The position numbers and the translations under genes are program-made. A model generated the notes under the pieces. The model searched no databases. It was not told the origin of the DNA and saw only the letters and a program-made list of their open reading frames with translations. DNA of 7,295 nucleotides from Acidobacteriota bacterium (GTDB taxonomy: Bacteria > Acidobacteriota > Holophagae > Thermotomaculales > Thermotomaculaceae), in the NCBI GenBank assembly GCA_015487755.1, contig WFPG01000308.1, positions 1-7,295 of the forward strand, given 5' to 3'. Shown here piece by piece: positions 1 to 7,295 of the stretch (position 1 is its first letter; every line of letters begins with the position of its first letter).

Positions 1-20
1 CAGATGTGTATAAGAGACAG
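1..20 (+). other. Nextera (Tn5 mosaic-end) sequencing adapter remnant
   Basis: Bases 2-20 are identical to the 19-bp Tn5 mosaic end used in Nextera libraries. The C at base 1 matches the Read 1 version of the adapter. This is library-construction sequence, not genomic DNA. It explains why infB stops at the window edge, and real sequence starts at base 21. Confidence 0.96.
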
Positions 21-252
21 CTTTTACCGTCTTTTCTTTTGCTTTCTTTTTAGAAGGTGTTTTTTTTGCACTTTCTTTTTTCGGTTTAGGCTTTTTACCT
101 TTAAAGTGCTTAACAATGTCGTCCATGCTTTCTTCAGGCACGGAACTCATATGAGATTTAATTTCGTAGCCCTTTGAGTTTAAAAACTCTATCAACTCCT
201 TATTGGAAACATTTAACTCCTTCGCTAACTCATGCACCCTTTTTTTAGCCAT
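21..252 (-). CDS. infB: Translation initiation factor IF-2, N-terminal fragment
   Basis: I translated this 5' end by hand: 77 complete codons, starting MAKKRVHELAKELNVSNKEL, before the reading frame enters adapter. This is the typical IF-2 N-terminal subdomain, a small helical domain with the VHELAKELNVSNKELIEFL-type pattern over residues 6-25. A Lys/Pro/Ala-rich linker of low complexity follows from about residue 51. The GTPase domain and the fMet-tRNA-binding domain lie beyond the contig end. IF-2 is the GTPase that brings initiator tRNA to the 30S subunit and promotes subunit joining. Its ATG overlaps the nusA stop codon by one base (TAATG at 254-250), so translation is probably coupled to nusA. 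Identification rests on the N-terminal motif plus gene order, and is strong. Confidence 0.93.
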
Positions 253-1547
253 TAGTTGCCCTCCCCGAGTAGTGCCTTTTTAGCCTGCTCTATCAATTGT
301 TCAGCGGACTTTTTACCGATTCCTTCAATTGTTGACAACTCTTCAACCGTTGCGTCGGCAACATCCTTTATTTTAGTAAACCCCGCTTCTTCAAGTTTTT
401 CAAGTTTTTTCTTGCCTATGCCTTTTAGTTCTTTTAAATCATGCTCTTCTTCGTCACTTCCGCCGCCCATTTGCTTTTTAATCTCTTCCTTTTTGTCCGC
501 TTCTCTCTTAACATCTATTGTCCAGCCTACAAGTTTGCTTGCAAGCCTTACATTCTGGCCGTGAGTGCCTATTGCAAGGGAATACTGGTCATCGGAAACA
601 ATTACCTCAAGCCTTTTGCTTTCCCTGTCTGCTATTGAAACCCTTAAAAGTTTTGCCGGCGAAAGGGCATTTTCCGCAAACCTTTCTATATCGTCTTCAT
701 ACTTGATAATATCCACCTTTTCGCCCTTTAATTCCCTTAAAATAGCCTTAATCCTCGAGCCTCCTACACCGACGCATGCACCTATAGGGTCAATATCCGG
801 CTCGGTTGAGTAAACGGCAACCTTTGACCTTTCTCCCGGCTCTCTCACTATGTTTTTTATAATAACCGTTCCTTCGTAAACCTCGGGAACTTCCATTTCA
901 AATAGTTTTATCAACAGCCTGGGGTCTGTTCTTGAAAGTTGAACCTGCAAGTCCCCGGTTTTTGAAACATCAACTATTACAGCCCTTACCCTGTCTCCCA
1001 CAGAAAACCTTTCTCCGGGAATTAACTGGTCTCTTCTAATAACACCTTCGGTTTTCCCTAAATCAACCACAACATTGCCCCTTTCAAACCTTCTAACAGG
1101 GACATTTACAACCTCTCCTATTCTCTCTTTAAACTCGTTGTAGATATGAAACCTTTCAAAGTCTTTAATCTTTGACATAATAACCTGTTTTGCCGCATTT
1201 GCCGCAATTCTGCCCATTGAGTCTTTATCTTTCTCAATCCTGATAGTCTCTCCGATTTCGGCATCTTCTTTGTAATTTTTTGCCTCTTCAAGGGAAATCT
1301 GGGTTTTCGGGTCTTCAACCTCTTCAACCACCTCTTTTAAGGCAAAAATCCTGATATCTCCCGTTTCCTCGTCAATCTCTACTTCAAACTCTCCGTCGTT
1401 TTTGAAATACTTTTTGGCGGCAGATATCATTGCCTCTTTAAGCATCTCAATTATCAATTCATACTCAATGTTTTTGTCGTGCGCAAGCTGGTGCATTGCG
1501 CTGATAAAGTCCTTCGGTGAAGGTTGTGTACTGCTTCTTCTCGGCAT
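252..1547 (-). CDS. nusA: Transcription termination/antitermination factor NusA
   Basis: NusA binds RNA polymerase and nascent RNA, and modulates pausing, intrinsic termination and antitermination. The 431-residue protein shows the family domains in order: an N-terminal RNAP-binding domain (about 14-135), S1 (about 142-206), KH1 (about 207-285, with DPIGACVGVGGSRI at 253-266) and KH2 (about 290-350, with SLAIGTHGQNVRLASKLVGW at 323-342). An acidic linker follows, then a C-terminal helix-hairpin-helix domain (about 370-426) with two GIGKK motifs at 376-380 and 409-413. The length lies between Bacillus NusA, which has no C-terminal repeats, and E. coli NusA, which has two; here I see one such module. 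The start is supported by AGAGAGGT at 1553-1560, where the GAGAGG core ends 6 nt before the ATG. rimP ends 22 nt upstream and infB overlaps downstream by one base. The GxxG loops (GVGG, GTHG) carry no Lys or Arg. Confidence 0.98.
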   Translation of the reverse strand: MPRRSSTQPSPKDFISAMHQLAHDKNIEYELIIEMLKEAMISAAKKYFKNDGEFEVEIDEETGDIRIFALKEVVEEVEDPKTQISLEEAKNYKEDAEIGETIRIEKDKDSMGRIAANAAKQVIMSKIKDFERFHIYNEFKERIGEVVNVPVRRFERGNVVVDLGKTEGVIRRDQLIPGERFSVGDRVRAVIVDVSKTGDLQVQLSRTDPRLLIKLFEMEVPEVYEGTVIIKNIVREPGERSKVAVYSTEPDIDPIGACVGVGGSRIKAILRELKGEKVDIIKYEDDIERFAENALSPAKLLRVSIADRESKRLEVIVSDDQYSLAIGTHGQNVRLASKLVGWTIDVKREADKKEEIKKQMGGGSDEEEHDLKELKGIGKKKLEKLEEAGFTKIKDVADATVEELSTIEGIGKKSAEQLIEQAKKALLGEGN

Positions 1548-1569
1548 AGTTTACCTCTCTCTTTTTTAT

Positions 1570-2031
1570 TTAGAATTTAATTTCTCTCTTCAGGTTTGCT
1601 TTTTTTATTTGAGGAAGGGGGATTTTAAACTCTCCGTCGTCTGTTTCAACTACAACATTATCCTTTTCATCCACCCCTTTTAAAATTCCCTCTACCTTTT
1701 TCCTGCCCCCTATATCTCCCTTTAACTGCACCTTTATTTTCTCTCCTGCAAATTTCTCAAAATCCCTCTTTTTCCCGACAATTCTATCTATACCGGGAGA
1801 GGAAACTTCAAGTGTGTAAGAGTGGGGGATTAAATCTTCAACATCCAACTCATAACTGATTTGATTGCTAATTTTCTGGCAGTCTTTAATTGTAACTCCG
1901 CCCTCTTTATCTATGTAAATTCGCAGAATCCATCTCTTGCCTTCGGGAACAAACTCAACAAAGACAAGTTCCATTCCCTCGTTTTCAATTATGTTTTCAG
2001 CGAGTTTTTCCACTTTTTTTAAATAATCCAT
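1570..2031 (-). CDS. rimP: Ribosome maturation factor RimP
   Basis: RimP assists late maturation of the 30S ribosomal subunit in the cytoplasm. The 153-residue product has the normal family length. It has an N-terminal alpha/beta domain (about 1-85) ending in the signature YTLEVSSPGIDR at residues 72-83, and a C-terminal SH3-like beta domain (about 88-150, including GRKKVEGILKGVDEKDNVVV at 109-128). It is the first gene of rimP-nusA-infB, an order conserved across many bacteria. The likely Shine-Dalgarno is GGAGA at 2042-2046, with a rather long 10-nt gap to the ATG. A second weak AAGG lies nearer. An intrinsic terminator hairpin sits only 7 nt upstream of that Shine-Dalgarno, inside the predicted leader, which suggests attenuation control. 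Confidence 0.96.
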   Translation of the reverse strand: MDYLKKVEKLAENIIENEGMELVFVEFVPEGKRWILRIYIDKEGGVTIKDCQKISNQISYELDVEDLIPHSYTLEVSSPGIDRIVGKKRDFEKFAGEKIKVQLKGDIGGRKKVEGILKGVDEKDNVVVETDDGEFKIPLPQIKKANLKREIKF

Positions 2032-2053
2032 ACCTTAACCATCTCCAAAAACT

Positions 2054-2080
2054 AAAAAAAGTGAGGAAACCTCACTTTTT
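2054..2080 (-). terminator. Intrinsic terminator / likely attenuator in the rimP leader
   Basis: On the minus strand this reads AAAAAGTGAGG, a TTT loop, then CCTCACTTTTT. That is a perfect 11-bp stem (2056-2066 with 2070-2080) whose core is the 6-bp GTGAGG/CCTCAC. Seven consecutive T residues (2060 to 2054) follow the core. It lies between mraY and rimP, so it can terminate the murJ-murG-mraY transcript; I see no other hairpin with a T-run after mraY. A promoter predicted at 2105-2132 lies upstream of it, so it would also sit in the leader of rimP-nusA-infB and control entry into that operon. The 5' A-run makes the element bidirectional in principle, but no plus-strand gene ends here. Confidence 0.85.
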
Positions 2081-2104
2081 AATAGAAAAATGCCGTCGCT
2101 TTAA

Positions 2105-2132
2105 AGTTTGCCATAATTAGCTTTTTTGTCAA
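2105..2132 (-). promoter_or_regulatory. Sigma-70-type promoter for rimP-nusA-infB
   Basis: On the minus strand a perfect -35 box TTGACA (2132-2127) is followed after 16 bp by CAAACT (2110-2105). CAAACT keeps the key A at position 2 and T at position 6 of a -10 hexamer, and is preceded by TGG, fitting the extended -10 pattern TGn. The -10 itself matches poorly (3 of 6). The predicted start is near 2098, giving a leader of about 67 nt that contains the hairpin at 2054-2080. The -35 is convincing; the exact -10 is less certain, and a 17-bp spacing to AAACTT is the alternative. Confidence 0.6.
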
Positions 2133-2205
2133 GGGTAAAATAATGCTAAACTTCCTTTGTCTTTTTACAAACACTGCTTTAATTTTTGTGCTTTAAAATT
2201 TCCTT

Positions 2206-3309
2206 TTACCTTATCTTCAACGACAACAGGCCTATTAAAGCAAGGATTACCGAAATCAGCCACAGCCTTACCACTGCTTTTGGCTCGGCTATACCTTTGT
2301 GGGTTAAAGTGTGGTGGTAGGGTGCCCTGTAAAGCATTCTCCTGCCCAACCTTGAGCCTATCTTTTCCTGTAAAAGGGAAGTGAATATTTCAAAGACAAA
2401 TAAACCGCCTACTATTAAAAACAAGAATTCCTGTTTAAGGAAAAAGGCAACCATTCCTATCACGCTTCCTATTGCAAGGGAGCCTGTATCCCCCATAAAG
2501 ATTTCGGCAGGATAGGTATTAAACCATAAAAACCCTACTATGCCCCCTATGAGTATTGAGCAGAAAATAACAATCTCTTCCGTGCCGGGTATATAGGGAA
2601 ATAAAAGGTATTGGGCAAGTATTTTATTGCCTATTACATATGCAAAAACAGTGTACACCCCTATTGCCAATACACTTGTTCCCCCAAGCAAGCCGTCCAT
2701 TCCGTCAACAATGTTTACCGCATTTATTATTGAAAACATTGTAAAAACAATAAAAATACCGAAAATCATGTCGGGAAGCGCCATTACCGGGTTTTTGTAA
2801 AAGGGAAGGTAAATTAAAGTTTTTAAACCTTCAGGCATAGGGTTTAAAGAAGAAAGGTAGAATATCGCAAAAGGGATTATAAAGGCAAAAAGCATTAAGG
2901 TTTTGCCCATCTGGGAAAGCCCGGAAAGGGATGATTTAAACCTGACTTTTAGAAAGTCGTCTATAAAACCCACAAAGCCTGTGTATAAAAAGCCTGCTAA
3001 CAGGACAAGCACATAGGTATTCCTTAAATCACCCCAGAAAAAGAGGGAAACCACTGTTGAAATTATTATCAACAAGCCCCCGGCGGTGGGTGTGCCTTTT
3101 TTTGAATATGAACTTACGCTTGCCTCTCCAGAAGTGTCTTTCATTCCCTTTTTGTAAAGGAAAACTATGAAATCCGAACCGTATATCAGGCAGAACATAA
3201 GGGAAAAAACCATCCCCATTAATGCCCTGAATGTAATGTAATTTGCAAGCCTGAAAAAACCGAAGTCTATTCCGTTTGCCTGACACAGTTCAATTATCAG
3301 TTTAATCAT
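2206..3309 (-). CDS. mraY: Phospho-N-acetylmuramoyl-pentapeptide transferase MraY
   Basis: This polytopic inner-membrane enzyme transfers phospho-MurNAc-pentapeptide from UDP to undecaprenyl phosphate, making lipid I. At 367 residues it has family length and many hydrophobic segments. Visible motifs are KKGTPTAGGLL (70-80), the Mg/catalytic pair GFIDDFLKV with D117-D118, NAVNIVDGMDGLLGG (196-210, D202 and D205), NTYPAEIFMGDTGSLA (264-279, D274) and the cytoplasmic His loop RAPYHHTLTHKG (328-339). In that loop the usual HHH is HHT, with Thr at 334. The ATG overlaps the murG stop by 8 bases (ATGATTAA), with AGAGGGG at 3314-3320 ending 4 nt before the start. It is the last gene of the operon, with a terminator hairpin about 125 bp downstream. 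The family call is secure despite the His change. Confidence 0.97.
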   Translation of the reverse strand: MIKLIIELCQANGIDFGFFRLANYITFRALMGMVFSLMFCLIYGSDFIVFLYKKGMKDTSGEASVSSYSKKGTPTAGGLLIIISTVVSLFFWGDLRNTYVLVLLAGFLYTGFVGFIDDFLKVRFKSSLSGLSQMGKTLMLFAFIIPFAIFYLSSLNPMPEGLKTLIYLPFYKNPVMALPDMIFGIFIVFTMFSIINAVNIVDGMDGLLGGTSVLAIGVYTVFAYVIGNKILAQYLLFPYIPGTEEIVIFCSILIGGIVGFLWFNTYPAEIFMGDTGSLAIGSVIGMVAFFLKQEFLFLIVGGLFVFEIFTSLLQEKIGSRLGRRMLYRAPYHHTLTHKGIAEPKAVVRLWLISVILALIGLLSLKIR

Positions 3310-5293
3310 TTTTCCCCTCTAATATTTTAAGTGTTTTAAAATACTTCTCCCTTACGCTGTAAACAGGCTTAAACTCGGAAGTGGTTATAAGCATTTTTTT
3401 GAGAAAAACCTGTAATTTTTCAATATCCGATAAACTTGAACTGTCTATCGCTATCCTTACCGCATCAAGCAAAGCCTCTCTAATCCTCACATTTTTATGG
3501 GTTAAGAATTTTTTATTCATTTTAACAAAATTGTCTTCGTCAAGGATAAGGGAAGACGCTTTTATGCTTTCGCAAATTACTTCAAAACTCTCAAACTTTT
3601 TTTCAAGGTTTTTGAGTATTTTCTCTTTTATTTTTTCATTTGTGGACAACTCTCTGAAAAAGCGGATAAAAAGGGAGATAGCCTCTCTCCTCACTTCAAA
3701 GTAGGAATCTTCAATCCCTTTTTCAATTACGGTTTCAAATTGAGGGAAAAATTTTTCTGCATTTTTAAAAGCAATAAGGGTGTTTCTCTTTAAGTAGCCT
3801 TTGAAGTTTGAAAAGTTATCCCACAAAAAGGGGTACTTTTCTTCAACTTTTAAAGCCCCTATCAACTTAATTGCCTTGTTAACTACCATAAAGTTTTGAG
3901 ATTGCAGGTACTCATCAATCTTTATTCTGTAAAACCTTGAGTAAAGGTTTGCCTCTCTTTCTTCTTTCGGTATTGCATAAAGGTACCTTACAAGATTGTC
4001 AAAATACCTTTGAAACTTAACAAATTGAGGTTCAAATACCCCTGTTATAAAGTTTATTTCGTCCTCTTTCCCCGTTAAAAGCCTGTAAATTGTTTCTACA
4101 ATAACCTCTTCCCCTTTTTCGTAAAAGAGAGACTTTGCGTTTTTAGAGATTTCATTCATTCTCTCACTATTGTTTAACAGGCTTTTCAGAAGGCTGATAA
4201 ACTCTTGCCCCTCAATGTAATCGTTGCCGTTCTTTCTCTTTTCAAACAAAACCTCGCAACCGCCTTTTTCCGCAATCCCTATTGCGTTTAACTCCTGGTG
4301 GTCTCCCGGCAAGCCCCTTTTGGGGATTAAAATTGCAGGCTTGCCGAGTGCTAAAATTTCAGAAATTGCTCCCGCCCCGGCCCTTGAAACAATTACATCC
4401 GCCGCTTTCTGGTAATCAAAAATTTTGTCAATAAACCTTTTGCCTGTGTAAAACAATTGCCCGTTTTTGTAAAGCCTTATTTCTTCCCCTTTTTCCTCTA
4501 TTTTAAACCCTGATTTTTTTAATAAGTTCAGGGTATCTTCAAAAGCGTTGTAACTTTCGGAAGTGTTCAAGCCTATTGAGTGGATAAATAAAGTGTTTTT
4601 AAAACCTGCCAATTCATTAACAGACTGTGCCACAAGCCTGTTTATTGTCCTTGCGCCTAATGAGCCTCCGGTTATAAGCACAACCTTTCTATCCGAAGGA
4701 ATGCCTAATTTTTCCTTAAAGTCTTCCTTTTTGTACCCTTCAAGGTACTGGCTTCTTACAGGATAGCCTGTGTAAACACATTTATTGCTCCATATAAAGT
4801 AGGAACTCTCTTTAAAGTTCACAAAAACCGTATCCGCAAAAAGGGATGCCACCTTGTTCAAAAGCCCGGGCACAAGGTTTTGCTCGTCTAAAACTATCTT
4901 GTGCTTTAAAAAAGGCTTGAGTAAAAAGCCTGCAACTATGACAGGCGCGGAAACATATCCCCCTGCTCCGATTATCAAATCAGGCTTAAACTTTATAATC
5001 TTCCCCATAGACTGTAATACCCCGAGTGAAAGGGAAAATATTGCTTTCAGTTTTTCAAATCCTGACTTGTCCGCAAAGGGGGAAGACTTGATAAACTCAA
5101 GTTTTATGCCGTGTTTTGGGACAATAACCTCTTCAGCCTTTCCCTTCAAGCCTAAATAAAGGGATTCTTCAACCTTAAAATGCTTTTTCAAAATATTGTA
5201 AACCGCTATACAGGGAATAACATGCCCCGCAGTCCCGCCCCCTGTTAGCAGTACTTTTATTTTTGAATTTGCAACTTTTTTTTCAAATGCCAT
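3302..5293 (-). CDS. murG: MurG lipid II synthase fused to a C-terminal HEAT-like helical domain
   Basis: MurG adds GlcNAc from UDP-GlcNAc to lipid I on the cytoplasmic membrane face, forming lipid II. Residues about 11-408 are a complete GT-B glycosyltransferase: GGGTAGHVIP (18-27), GAGGYVSAP (109-117), DEQNLVPGLLNK (136-147, Asp for the usual His), TGGSLGA (208-214), SRAGAGAISEILALGKPA (303-320) and DHQELNA (331-337). A segment of about 20 extra residues near 255-283 looks inserted relative to E. coli MurG. The protein then continues in frame to 663 residues, against about 360 for the family. The extension is soluble and helical, with HEAT-like pieces such as DSYFEVRREAISLFIRFF (529-546) and HKNVRIREALLDAVRIA (599-615). 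The start has GGGAG at 5298-5302, 4 nt upstream, and overlaps the end of murJ by 37 bp; no other start codon precedes the glycine loop. The role of the extension is unknown. Confidence 0.95.
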   Translation of the reverse strand: MAFEKKVANSKIKVLLTGGGTAGHVIPCIAVYNILKKHFKVEESLYLGLKGKAEEVIVPKHGIKLEFIKSSPFADKSGFEKLKAIFSLSLGVLQSMGKIIKFKPDLIIGAGGYVSAPVIVAGFLLKPFLKHKIVLDEQNLVPGLLNKVASLFADTVFVNFKESSYFIWSNKCVYTGYPVRSQYLEGYKKEDFKEKLGIPSDRKVVLITGGSLGARTINRLVAQSVNELAGFKNTLFIHSIGLNTSESYNAFEDTLNLLKKSGFKIEEKGEEIRLYKNGQLFYTGKRFIDKIFDYQKAADVIVSRAGAGAISEILALGKPAILIPKRGLPGDHQELNAIGIAEKGGCEVLFEKRKNGNDYIEGQEFISLLKSLLNNSERMNEISKNAKSLFYEKGEEVIVETIYRLLTGKEDEINFITGVFEPQFVKFQRYFDNLVRYLYAIPKEEREANLYSRFYRIKIDEYLQSQNFMVVNKAIKLIGALKVEEKYPFLWDNFSNFKGYLKRNTLIAFKNAEKFFPQFETVIEKGIEDSYFEVRREAISLFIRFFRELSTNEKIKEKILKNLEKKFESFEVICESIKASSLILDEDNFVKMNKKFLTHKNVRIREALLDAVRIAIDSSSLSDIEKLQVFLKKMLITTSEFKPVYSVREKYFKTLKILEGKND

Positions 5294-6783
5294 ATCACTC
5301 CCGCAAAGTAAAGTATGGATAATACTCCGCCTGCCCCTATAAACAAAGCGTAAAACGAAAAGCCGTTCAAACTCTTTAAAAAGTATTTTAATACAAAAAG
5401 GAAAATGGTGTAAGGAATTAGTGCTAACAATATGCCGTAAAAACCGCTAAAGTCATTTCTTTTAAATTTAATATCAAACTTTGAAAGCATAATAAACAAA
5501 ATTACCACCTGTGCAAGCATTGAAATTGCCGTGGCAAGGGCTATGCCCCCCTGTTTTAAACTTGTTTTGTAAAGGGCAAAATCAAGGATTATATTTAAAA
5601 TAGCCCCTATAACGGATGCTATTAAAGGATAGGTGTTGTTCTCCAGTGAAGAGTATGCCCTGCCTAAAACCGCAAGCATTCCCATAGGAAGCAAGACAAG
5701 AGCATAGTAAAAAAACGCTTTTGAAGTCAATAAAAGGGAGTGTGTTCCGAAATTTCCCCTTTTGTAAAAAATTGCAATTACCTCTTTCGGAAAGAGAAGA
5801 AAAAAAACTGTAACGGGAAGCAAAATGGCAATGTTTATAAGCAGTCCCTTTGCAATAAGGTTCCCGAAGGTTTCATTGTCTTTATTCCCTTTAAGTTTTG
5901 AAAACTCAGGTGCAAGCGCCCTTGAAATTGCAAGGGAAAAGAATGCAAAGGGAAGGTGGATTATCCTGAAACTGTACCACAAAGAAGAGATTGCACCGCT
6001 TCCCACAAGGGAAGCCACCAGCCTATCAACTATCTCCACGCTTTTGTTAACAATTGATAGAAAAAATATTTTAACCCCTTCAAACAGGGAAGATTTAAAC
6101 TCTCTATTTTCGTCAGCCACATCCATATTCTTTTCTTCTATCCTTAAAGAAAAGTAAACCTTAAAGACAAATGGCACCTGAATTAAAAGGAAAAGCAAAG
6201 CGCCTGTAAGATAGGCGTAAACTATTGAAACTTCTCCTAACTTTTTGTAGAAAAACACAAGAAAGAGTATTGTGCCCACATTCATAAAAGCAGGGGCAAT
6301 TGCATATAAAAAAGGCTTTCCGTTAAAAAGAAGGAAAGCGCCTAAAAGGGTTGCAAAGGATATCAAAAACAAAAAAGGCACAAGTTTGTATGCAAAACTT
6401 ACGGCGTAGTTATAAGAAATTCCGCTTAACCCAGGGGCTATAAAGTGAATCAAATGAGGGATAAACAGGTAAATTAAAAAGCACGCAAGTATTGACGCAA
6501 GGAAGGTAAAAAATACAATTTTCAAGAAAAACCTTTTTGCAGAGGCTGTTTTTCCCTGCTCTTTAAGCCTTTTAAACCTGGGCATAAAAGCCCTTTCAAA
6601 CATCTCTTCCCCAAGCACCCTTCTGAAAAGGTTCGGGATTGTAAAGGCTACTACAAAGGAATCAAATGTCGAGCCTGCGCCGAAATAGGTTGCGGTTACA
6701 ATCTCCCTTAACAACCCCAATAGCCTTGAAAGCAAAGTGCCTATTGAAATAAAAACCCCGCTTTTTACAATACCCTTATTCAT
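5257..6783 (-). CDS. murJ: Lipid II flippase MurJ (MVN/MviN family)
   Basis: MurJ is a MOP-superfamily membrane protein that flips lipid II from the cytoplasmic to the periplasmic leaflet. The 508-residue product is hydrophobic throughout, fits about 14 membrane segments, and matches family length. The N-terminal signature is clear: SRLLGLLREIVTATYFGAG (19-37), then DSFVVAFTIPNLFRR (41-55). R20, R26, D41 and R54 correspond to E. coli R18, R24, D39 and R52, a constant offset of two that also supports the chosen start. R273 in WYSFRIIHLP is the likely counterpart of R270. Other family blocks are FYKRGNF (339-345) and VLGRAYSSLENNTYP (372-386). It is first in the operon; its 3' end overlaps murG by 37 bp. 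No Shine-Dalgarno precedes the ATG, and a -10 box lies only 7 nt upstream, so the message may be leaderless. Confidence 0.97.
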   Translation of the reverse strand: MNKGIVKSGVFISIGTLLSRLLGLLREIVTATYFGAGSTFDSFVVAFTIPNLFRRVLGEEMFERAFMPRFKRLKEQGKTASAKRFFLKIVFFTFLASILACFLIYLFIPHLIHFIAPGLSGISYNYAVSFAYKLVPFLFLISFATLLGAFLLFNGKPFLYAIAPAFMNVGTILFLVFFYKKLGEVSIVYAYLTGALLFLLIQVPFVFKVYFSLRIEEKNMDVADENREFKSSLFEGVKIFFLSIVNKSVEIVDRLVASLVGSGAISSLWYSFRIIHLPFAFFSLAISRALAPEFSKLKGNKDNETFGNLIAKGLLINIAILLPVTVFFLLFPKEVIAIFYKRGNFGTHSLLLTSKAFFYYALVLLPMGMLAVLGRAYSSLENNTYPLIASVIGAILNIILDFALYKTSLKQGGIALATAISMLAQVVILFIMLSKFDIKFKRNDFSGFYGILLALIPYTIFLFVLKYFLKSLNGFSFYALFIGAGGVLSILYFAGVIWHLKKKLQIQK

Positions 6784-6790
6784 AATGTGT

Positions 6791-6796
6791 ATTGTA
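6791..6796 (-). promoter_or_regulatory. Extended -10 promoter of the murJ-murG-mraY operon
   Basis: On the minus strand TACAAT (5 of 6 to TATAAT) is preceded directly by TGA, giving an extended -10 (TGn). I see no convincing -35 box at 16-18 bp. The hexamer ends 7 nt before the murJ ATG at 6783, so transcription would start at or within a base or two of the initiation codon. There is no Shine-Dalgarno in the short gap, which fits a leaderless transcript. Confidence 0.55.
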
Positions 6797-6822
6797 TCAC
6801 AAAACCTTGATTTTAAAGGCTA

Positions 6823-6852
6823 AAAGCAAAAATCAGGCATATTATTTGCTTT
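6823..6852. repeat. 8-bp inverted repeat in the divergent intergenic region
   Basis: AAAGCAAA at 6823-6830 and TTTGCTTT at 6845-6852 are perfect inverted copies separated by 14 bp, in the 106-bp gap between murJ (minus) and the small exported protein gene (plus). The position would suit an operator serving one or both genes, and the right arm overlaps possible -10 sequences for the plus-strand gene. The arms are AT-rich and short, so chance is a real alternative. Confidence 0.3.
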
Positions 6853-6855
6853 AAT
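6840..6855 (+). promoter_or_regulatory. Tentative promoter -10 region of the small exported protein gene
   Basis: Two overlapping candidates are visible: TATTAT at 6840-6845 (5 of 6 to consensus), and TTTAAT at 6850-6855 preceded by TGC, an extended -10 pattern. Neither has a good -35 at 16-18 bp; TTGATT at 6807-6812 is too far from both. Some promoter must lie between 6784 and about 6870, but I cannot fix it. Confidence 0.25.
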
Positions 6856-6876
6856 AATGTTGTGTGAAAAACTTTT

Positions 6877-6883
6877 AAGGAGG
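6877..6883 (+). promoter_or_regulatory. Strong Shine-Dalgarno sequence that fixes the downstream start
   Basis: AAGGAGG is a full-strength ribosome binding site, 6 nt before the ATG at 6890. It selects that ATG over the in-frame ATG at 6857, which lies upstream of the site and would add 11 residues ahead of an otherwise clean signal peptide. Confidence 0.9.
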
Positions 6884-6889
6884 CATGAT

Positions 6890-7219
6890 ATGAAAAAACT
6901 TTCAATTTTCCTGATTTTAGCGGCATTAACGGTAAGTTTGGGGATTGCCTGTATTGTTGAGCCTGCTCCACATGTGAGAGGCCATGCAAGAGTTCACTAT
7001 GTGGCACCGGGAGTAAGAGTTACTTATGTAGTTAGAAGCGGCGTCAGGGTTTACCGTGTACCGAGAGGGATAAGGCCGGGAGATGTTATCATTATAGACG
7101 GCAAGAGGTGTGTGGTGAGAAAGGTTAAAAGAAACAGGGTAAAGGTTGCTTACCCGAGCGGCACAAGGGTATGGATAAATGTTGTTGCTATAAACAAAGT
7201 CAAGCCCCCCGCGGCCTAA
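6890..7219 (+). CDS. Small exported basic protein or lipoprotein, function unknown
   Basis: The 109-residue product is not one I recognise. It begins MKKLSIFLILAALTVSLGIA followed by Cys21, a textbook export signal with a Lys-Lys start and one hydrophobic core. Cys21 could be lipidated, but the preceding residues G-I-A deviate from the usual L-A/S-G/A lipobox at -3, so ordinary signal peptidase I cleavage is also possible. The mature part is strongly basic and rich in Val and Arg with alternating hydrophobic residues, suggesting beta strands. Three similar short units run in tandem at about 38-66: VHYVAPGVR, VTYVVRSGVR, VYRVPRGIR. A second segment (GDVIIIDGKRCVVRKVKRNR, 66-85) resembles a small beta-barrel strand pattern and has another Cys. 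The charge would suit binding of an anionic envelope polymer or surface, but that is inference. It is transcribed divergently from murJ with its own strong ribosome binding site. Confidence 0.85.
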   Translation: MKKLSIFLILAALTVSLGIACIVEPAPHVRGHARVHYVAPGVRVTYVVRSGVRVYRVPRGIRPGDVIIIDGKRCVVRKVKRNRVKVAYPSGTRVWINVVAINKVKPPAA

Positions 7220-7223
7220 TCTC

Positions 7224-7245
7224 CGAGGTCTATGCCTCAATTTTT
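7224..7245 (+). repeat. Hairpin repeat copy 1 with T-run, possible weak terminator
   Basis: CGAGGTCTATGCCTCA followed by ATTTTT. GAGGT and GCCTC form a 5-bp stem (one G-T pair) with a CTAT loop, then a five-T run two bases later. It starts 5 bp after the stop codon of the preceding gene, the right place for an intrinsic terminator, although the stem is short. A near-identical copy follows 28 bp on. Confidence 0.6.
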
Positions 7246-7251
7246 CATTTA

Positions 7252-7272
7252 CGAGGTCTGCGCCTCACTTTT
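7252..7272 (+). repeat. Hairpin repeat copy 2 with T-run
   Basis: CGAGGTCTGCGCCTCA followed by CTTTT repeats copy 1 at a 28-bp offset, differing only in two loop bases and one base before the T-run. The same stem forms (GAGGT with GCCTC) around a CTGC loop. The two copies may act together as tandem weak terminators, or be part of a dispersed or tandem repeat family continuing past the window edge. I see no gene or other signal in the remaining bases 7273-7295. Confidence 0.6.
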
Positions 7273-7295
7273 GATAAAATAGGCCGTAAGAAATC

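Follow-up and report, generated by a model that had tools for sequence, protein, structure and literature searches.

A predicted HEAT-type solenoid on the lipid II synthase MurG of Acidobacteriota, linked to an altered MraY and often joined to MurJ

Fused enzymes are a known feature of the Mur pathway, and the accessible text of PMC6420597 names MurE-MurF, MurB-MurC, MurG-MurC, MurC-Ddl, and MraY-MurG chains, besides reporting an interaction of MurG with MraY in Escherichia coli. Divergent MurG-type enzymes are also on record: MglA of the Streptomycetaceae, with the Pfam domains PF03033 and PF04101, is an alternative lipid II synthase able to do the job of MurG (accessible part of PMC8092295). 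Here, we describe MurG-HEAT, a MurG-type protein of 663 residues encoded in 7,295 nucleotides from an Acidobacteriota bacterium of the family Thermotomaculaceae (assembly GCA_015487755.1, contig WFPG01000308.1, positions 1 to 7,295 of the forward strand; the whole stretch is hereafter called the window). Its MurG core is followed by about 256 residues that are predicted with high confidence to form an all-helical solenoid, in all likelihood of the HEAT-repeat type; in relatives, the flippase MurJ can be part of the same chain. Like the known fusions, these chains unite pathway enzymes in one polypeptide, but the fusions in the portion of PMC6420597 at hand include neither a MurG-MurJ chain nor an added HEAT domain. 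Like MglA, MurG-HEAT is a divergent MurG-type enzyme; MglA, however, stands beside a canonical MurG, and the accessible part of its description mentions no added domain (PMC8092295), whereas MurG-HEAT is alone in its genomes. A literature search on MurG with MurJ fusion, HEAT, and Acidobacteria or Aminicenantes, which did not cover subscription papers or preprints, found no such proteins described. As the domain combination is visible in protein databases, it is undescribed as far as searchable, rather than unseen.

MurG-HEAT shares both GT-B domains and the GGT.GH, EQN, Glu, and HQ..N motifs with canonical MurG of family GT28 (E. coli 1f0k, P. aeruginosa 3s2u, A. baumannii 7d1i), from which it differs by the C-terminal solenoid, a longer H238-S303 segment, a separate clade, and scores mostly under the NCBI murG cut-off. 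Its frame runs through 663 codons without a stop. The two MurG domains occur in order at residues 14-157 (PF03033, 101.9 bits, cut-off 26.2) and 204-389 (PF04101, 93.9 bits, cut-off 22), and the TIGR01133 match stops at residue 402; residues ~404-663 are therefore extra. This bears out the initial annotation, made from the sequence alone, which had let the core end at about residue 408 and had named two HEAT-like motifs, VRREA at 534-538 and VRIREAL at 602-608, both located as claimed. With 231.2 bits, the TIGR01133 score lies below the curated 250.25, a cut-off reached in just one of 51 HEAT-bearing genomes (48 from the phylum sample described below plus G001, G008, and G016), and we therefore class the protein as a MurG-type clade and not as a murG equivalog. 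Residues H24, E137, N139, E312, H332, Q333, and N336, which we take to belong to the catalytic cleft, are nevertheless kept in all 47 MurG-HEAT and all 32 canonical rows. The H238-S303 segment has a median of 42 residues in canonical MurG and medians of 58, 64.5, and 51 in MurG-HEAT, depending on the arrangement of the chain; the ranges overlap (40-61 in canonical rows, 51-69 in the HEAT clade). Since MurG-HEAT is the sole strong MurG match in each genome, its predicted product is lipid II, the final building block of the cell wall to arise in the cytoplasm.

AlphaFold2 modelled the whole protein with a predicted local distance difference test (pLDDT) score of 88.3. A structure search with this full-length model had MurG and other GT-B-type folds among the 50 matches listed, and the extension was therefore modelled by itself (pLDDT 91.0, predicted template modelling score 0.86). 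The resulting 14 helices form antiparallel pairs stacked as a solenoid that matches HEAT/ARM chains (RanBP5 9im6, importin beta 1qgk, CAND1, a designed ARM protein, alphaRep), none of them from cell-wall synthesis. A sequence search of solved structures with the extension gave nothing significant (best match CLASP1, E 0.021). The HEAT assignment is weak in the window sequence, where HEAT (15.1 bits versus 23.5, E 0.029) and HEAT_2 (12.4 versus 27.7) stay below the Pfam cut-offs, and clear in the homologues, with HEAT_2 in 25 and HEAT in 18 of 36 homologous extensions at E <= 0.01. Nine residues are invariant across the 36 aligned extensions (N472, K476, L477, R503, N504, D529, Y531, E533, R605), with a similar outcome for an alignment of 47; some of them may be needed for the HEAT fold as such. 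The extension is conserved to much the same degree as the core (69% versus 64% in P0009, 45% versus 49% in P0018). The proposal of a HEAT-like domain fused to MurG, rather than a disordered or non-repeat tail, thus agrees with the predicted solenoid, its HEAT/ARM matches, and the Pfam hits in homologues.

Among 5.8 billion proteins, a search with residues 400-663 retrieved 18 matches, one of them the window's own, with 46-100% identity over the extension. Total length was 660-673 residues in 12 of the 18; overall, 14 measured 599-694 residues, and the remaining four, of 1154-1160 residues, have MurJ in front. The distant homologue G337 as query yielded 587 proteins at E <= 0.001. Of the 120 matches listed, 119 carry PF04101 and all carry HEAT_2 according to the Pfam annotation supplied with the database, tallied by eye. 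We found no indication that the extension exists as a stand-alone protein: a profile search gave four shorter proteins; P0019 has its start within MurG, and the remaining three resemble fragments of genes, P0022 for example lying on a contig of 1,034 bases. A lost stop codon or an indel joining MurG to an unrelated downstream frame, or a chimera, is of negligible probability, since the junction recurs in independent assemblies. Apart from the window's own protein, 17 database proteins share it, as do 54 distinct genes at the loci read, one of them in the single-contig 2.3-Mb genome G003. The MurG-HEAT frame and its extension are real.

The extension is present in 9 of 93 genomes of the class and in 48 of 396 genomes sampled across the phylum Acidobacteriota. 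With a wider profile (A3), 181 of the 396 genomes match at E <= 0.001, but the 48 at E <= 1e-47 are identical to the first set and the next genome follows at 1e-11; matches at this level and weaker were counted as other HEAT proteins. The 48 genomes fall into 13 family codes (f1, f6, f7, f18, f25, f27, f28, f31, f34, f35, f52, f62, f76), to which the class search adds f3. Beyond Acidobacteriota, we relied on a contig scan with two strict peptide patterns and on the protein searches; of 13 named extension loci, 12 are labelled Acidobacteria/Acidobacteriota or Candidatus Aminicenantes and one 'bacterium'. The spread is patchy: f34 has both MurG types in the MurG tree, f3 likewise if L044 is G016 (their gene coordinates are identical), and f6 and f25 include members with a canonical-length MurG over the NCBI cut-off. 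Twenty further loci with mostly long MurG frames elsewhere in Acidobacteriota (L116-L135) gave no extension match, and the extra codons of the long frames lie N-terminal to the MurG core.

All 51 HEAT-bearing genomes have a single strong MurG match (the next best elsewhere reaches E 1e-16, in G402), which in 48 of them lies in the extension-bearing frame; in G176, G342, and G362 the gene is split between two contigs, and G120 has a second piece that is part of the same gene. By sequence, MurG-HEAT stands in for canonical MurG in its genomes. Seven of the 54 distinct extension genes are truncated where a contig or locus ends, leaving 47 complete distinct proteins that were typed and placed in a tree, where a branch with a support of 100 in the Shimodaira-Hasegawa-like approximate likelihood ratio test (SH-aLRT) splits them from 32 canonical rows. 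The MurG tree and the MraY tree below are of a quick kind with SH-aLRT support only; the former drew long-branch and composition warnings and omits odd-numbered loci below L032 as well as canonical rows truncated at an end or spanning <300 model positions.

The 47 complete proteins comprise 30 MurG-HEAT, 8 MurJ-MurG-HEAT, and 9 MurG-MurJ-HEAT chains. MurJ thus shares a chain with the HEAT domain in 17 of them, in two orders, while the HEAT domain is strictly C-terminal in every architecture. The view of it as the C-terminal part of MurG holds for the MurG-HEAT order of 38 chains; the domain is not MurG's alone, however, as it follows MurJ in the other nine. Six fused proteins scanned with Pfam all contained MurJ (PF03023, 241-272 bits, cut-off 27.4) and both MurG domains, and HEAT_2 exceeded its cut-off in two (57.3 and 55.5 bits). 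The MurG tree requires five changes of architecture label, and at least two separate MurG/MurJ fusions are likely because opposite orders are not interconvertible by simple gene splitting. One more MurJ-MurG-HEAT chain is probably present in family f6, since a 746-codon frame running to a contig end in G362 (C117:7-2175) joins MurJ to the N-terminal part of MurG. Of 17 genomes with the fused gene on one contig, 12 have no further MurJ match better than E 1e-20 and five carry a second MurJ; this count includes G210, whose fused gene starts at a contig end, and leaves aside G342 and G362, with fused genes across two contigs. Unfused murJ lies directly upstream in the three loci of the window's genus with a readable junction, behind mraY in seven f28 loci, and otherwise outside the stretch read. 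Seven f28 genomes (G127, G171, G204, G255, G269, G337, G365) each show a pair of strong MurJ matches, one of which, except in G127, lies right behind mraY. A TIGR01695 MurJ match is absent from seven of the 51 HEAT-bearing genomes (G107, G134, G157, G165, G167, G176, G001), of which G165 and G001 reach a completeness of only 82-83%; the G001 contig begins inside murG. All four f31 genomes (G134, G157, G167, G176) are in this group and keep the HEAT domain; they and G107 may have another flippase, a very divergent MurJ, or an assembly gap.

Linkage to mraY, by contrast with the varying place of MurJ, is constant. In all 52 genes with >=300 nucleotides downstream (two others end at contig or locus ends), the MraY match starts -16 to +62 nucleotides from the last sense codon of the HEAT chain, whether this is MurG-HEAT, MurJ-MurG-HEAT, or MurG-MurJ-HEAT. 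The window MraY scores above the TIGR00445 cut-off (262 versus 192 bits) and matches canonical MraY (8g01, 4j72) over nearly its whole length. In the MraY tree, 50 HEAT-linked rows, which hold the window's gene twice, separate from 17 canonical rows with an SH-aLRT support of 100. The catalytic aspartates are shared (D117, D118, D202, and D205 in 50/50 HEAT-linked rows, D274 in 49/49). The HHH loop, however, differs: the motif PxHHHxExxG is replaced by PYHHTLTHKG in the window, the third histidine is found in none of 48 HEAT-linked but in 17/17 canonical rows, the glutamate in one of 48 versus 17/17, and Met 328, four residues before the first histidine, is Arg in 48/48 versus 0/17. We treat HEAT-linked MraY as a MraY-type variant on these sequence grounds. 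In its accessible part, PMC5039524 proposes the HHH motif as MraY-specific, contributing to specificity for UDP-MurNAc-pentapeptide, and places it in the fifth cytoplasmic loop, hence on MurG's membrane side; PMC4790310, equally in the part at hand, describes it as PNPT-superfamily-specific and speculates on a UDP-MurNAc-pentapeptide binding site. Exactly one MraY over the cut-off was found in 49 of the 51 genomes, in which weaker PNPT-type matches also occur. G008 has only MraY pieces below the cut-off. G298 is the sole HEAT-bearing genome with two MraYs over it (C62:14676-15644, C119:37637-38548), one of them canonical-scoring (429.6 bits), but it has a single MurG.

We tentatively favour, at somewhat less than an even chance, that the HEAT solenoid docks the lipid II synthase MurG, often together with MurJ, onto the neighbouring MraY. 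This reading draws on the HEAT-mraY junction, which stays constant while MurG and MurJ swap order, and on the alteration of MraY on the cytoplasmic side, where MurG acts. Briefly, the HEAT domain would bind MraY, and the change in the HHH loop would be linked to this contact. Lipid I made by MraY could then be glycosylated by MurG within one assembly, and with MurJ fused or coupled, lipid II would be flipped within the same assembly, so that fusion would add export. The gain would be that lipid I and lipid II are handed over without diffusion, which would make a single physical unit the likely place of both synthesis and export of lipid II. Both termini of MurJ are cytoplasmic in E. coli (accessible text of PMC4790310), and both fusion orders therefore keep MurG and HEAT in the cytoplasm. 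MurJ is hardly an obligatory partner of the domain, given the seven genomes that show no TIGR01695 match, including the four of f31. The initial annotation had named MraY and MurJ as first suspects; the genetic linkage described above favours both, as neighbour and fusion partner, respectively, and MurJ stands as a frequent rather than a necessary one. Against docking onto MraY weighs that joint inheritance of the whole block would give the same linkage pattern.

HEAT/ARM solenoids commonly bind proteins, and the domain might instead be a platform for cytoplasmic Mur enzymes, e.g., MurF, or for cytoskeletal proteins, feeding precursor to MraY and MurG. MurG is reported to bind MurD, MurE, and MurF in Thermotoga, MurE-MurF in Bordetella, and MreB in E. 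coli (accessible part of PMC6420597), in the window's genome four Mur_ligase_M matches exceed the cut-off and one more is weak, and a changed HHH loop would fit a new delivery route for UDP-MurNAc-pentapeptide (compare the available text of PMC5039524). We nevertheless consider a platform of this kind unlikely, as no mur ligase gene lies beside murG-HEAT in the window whereas mraY is always adjacent. That the solenoid faces the membrane or its lipids, holding MurG at the bilayer or binding the carrier lipid without any protein partner, appears quite improbable. MurG is a peripheral membrane enzyme (PMC9046198, part available) and the extension is basic (isoelectric point 9.2, 46 K/R versus 39 D/E), but the core is equally basic (9.3), the N, K, R, D, Y, and E residues that stay invariant across 36 divergent rows are hard to account for by a plain anchor, and the HEAT domain is kept even where fusion to MurJ already ties MurG to the membrane.

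Neighbouring genes in tight operons fuse readily, and operon and fusions could reflect ordinary compaction around a domain that merely stabilises or oligomerises MurG without a pathway partner. Oligomers of MurG are indeed described from Bordetella in the accessible part of PMC6420597. To such a role we assign a similarly low probability, because a HEAT domain placed after MurJ in nine of the 47 proteins would be odd for a stabiliser of MurG and the co-segregating change in MraY would be left unexplained. Docking onto MraY can also be extended into a bolder proposal, about which we are doubtful: an Acidobacteriota lipid II module of altered MraY, MurG-HEAT, and often MurJ would have replaced the canonical enzymes and work as one machine, in which HEAT clasps the altered loop of MraY and takes over part of the role of the HHH loop. 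MurG would receive lipid I directly, and where MurG and MurJ share a single chain, the flippase would receive lipid II in the same direct way.

In the window, murJ, murG-HEAT, and mraY overlap on the minus strand (Table 1), and a similar layout of the murJ/murG overlap occurs in two genomes of the same genus (G003, G004). A programmed frameshift was considered, as a -1 shift at the A_AAA_AAG sequence (A8G run) in this overlap would join MurJ to MurG; we do not claim it because the run is absent from both of these genomes, the two with a readable junction. MurG, MurJ, and MraY give a single match each in the window's genome, every one of them within the window, and the peptidoglycan pathway is likely present given these and the four clear Mur ligases. 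Beyond the three genes, the minus strand holds rimP, nusA, and one cut frame, which we take for the start of the gene for initiation factor 2 (IF-2). Positions 1-20, at the contig end and far from the murG gene, read CAGATGTGTATAAGAGACAG, an adapter-like sequence that yields a false tail, VSYTHL, of the IF-2-like frame; presumably it is a Nextera transposon end, i.e., an adapter left on the contig. On the plus strand, a frame of 120 residues (6857-7219) has a signal-peptide-like start and no Pfam family over the cut-off.

Table 1 Features of the murJ-murG-mraY region (positions in the window)
Feature	Position	Strand	Remarks
murJ, 508 aa	5257..6783	minus	directly upstream of murG-HEAT; fused to murG-HEAT in relatives
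murG-HEAT, 663 aa	3302..5293	minus	sole TIGR01133 match of its genome
MurG GT-B core, residues 10-403	4085..5266	minus	GGT.GH, EQN, E312, HQ..N kept
Lengthened core segment, H238-S303	4385..4582	minus	
C-terminal HEAT-type alpha-solenoid, residues 408-663 and stop	3302..4072	minus	predicted fold
Solenoid residues 472-605 holding the invariant residues	3479..3880	minus	alignment of 36 extensions
mraY, 367 aa	2206..3309	minus	directly downstream of murG-HEAT
Altered MraY HHH loop, R-A-P-Y-H-H-T-L-T-H-K-G	2293..2328	minus	canonical M-(A/S)-P-x-H-H-H-F-E-x-x-G
murJ/murG overlap, 37 nt	5257..5293	minus	murG in -1 frame, with its own GGGAG and ATG
murG/mraY overlap, 8 nt	3302..3309	minus	

Taken as a whole, the initial interpretation is supported for the HEAT-like fusion, and for MraY and MurJ as partners the support is genetic. 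The altered loop is presumably near the site bound by MraY inhibitors and for this reason worth testing. The question at stake is whether MraY, MurG, and MurJ act as one complex or hand their lipids over by diffusion; one study explains lipid transfer by rising affinities (PMC9046198, as far as available). Natural MurG-MurJ chains combined with a conserved docking-type domain offer a direct handle on this question. If the proposed module is real, its single-chain forms would be, to our knowledge, the first known natural synthase-flippase polypeptide for a cell-wall precursor.

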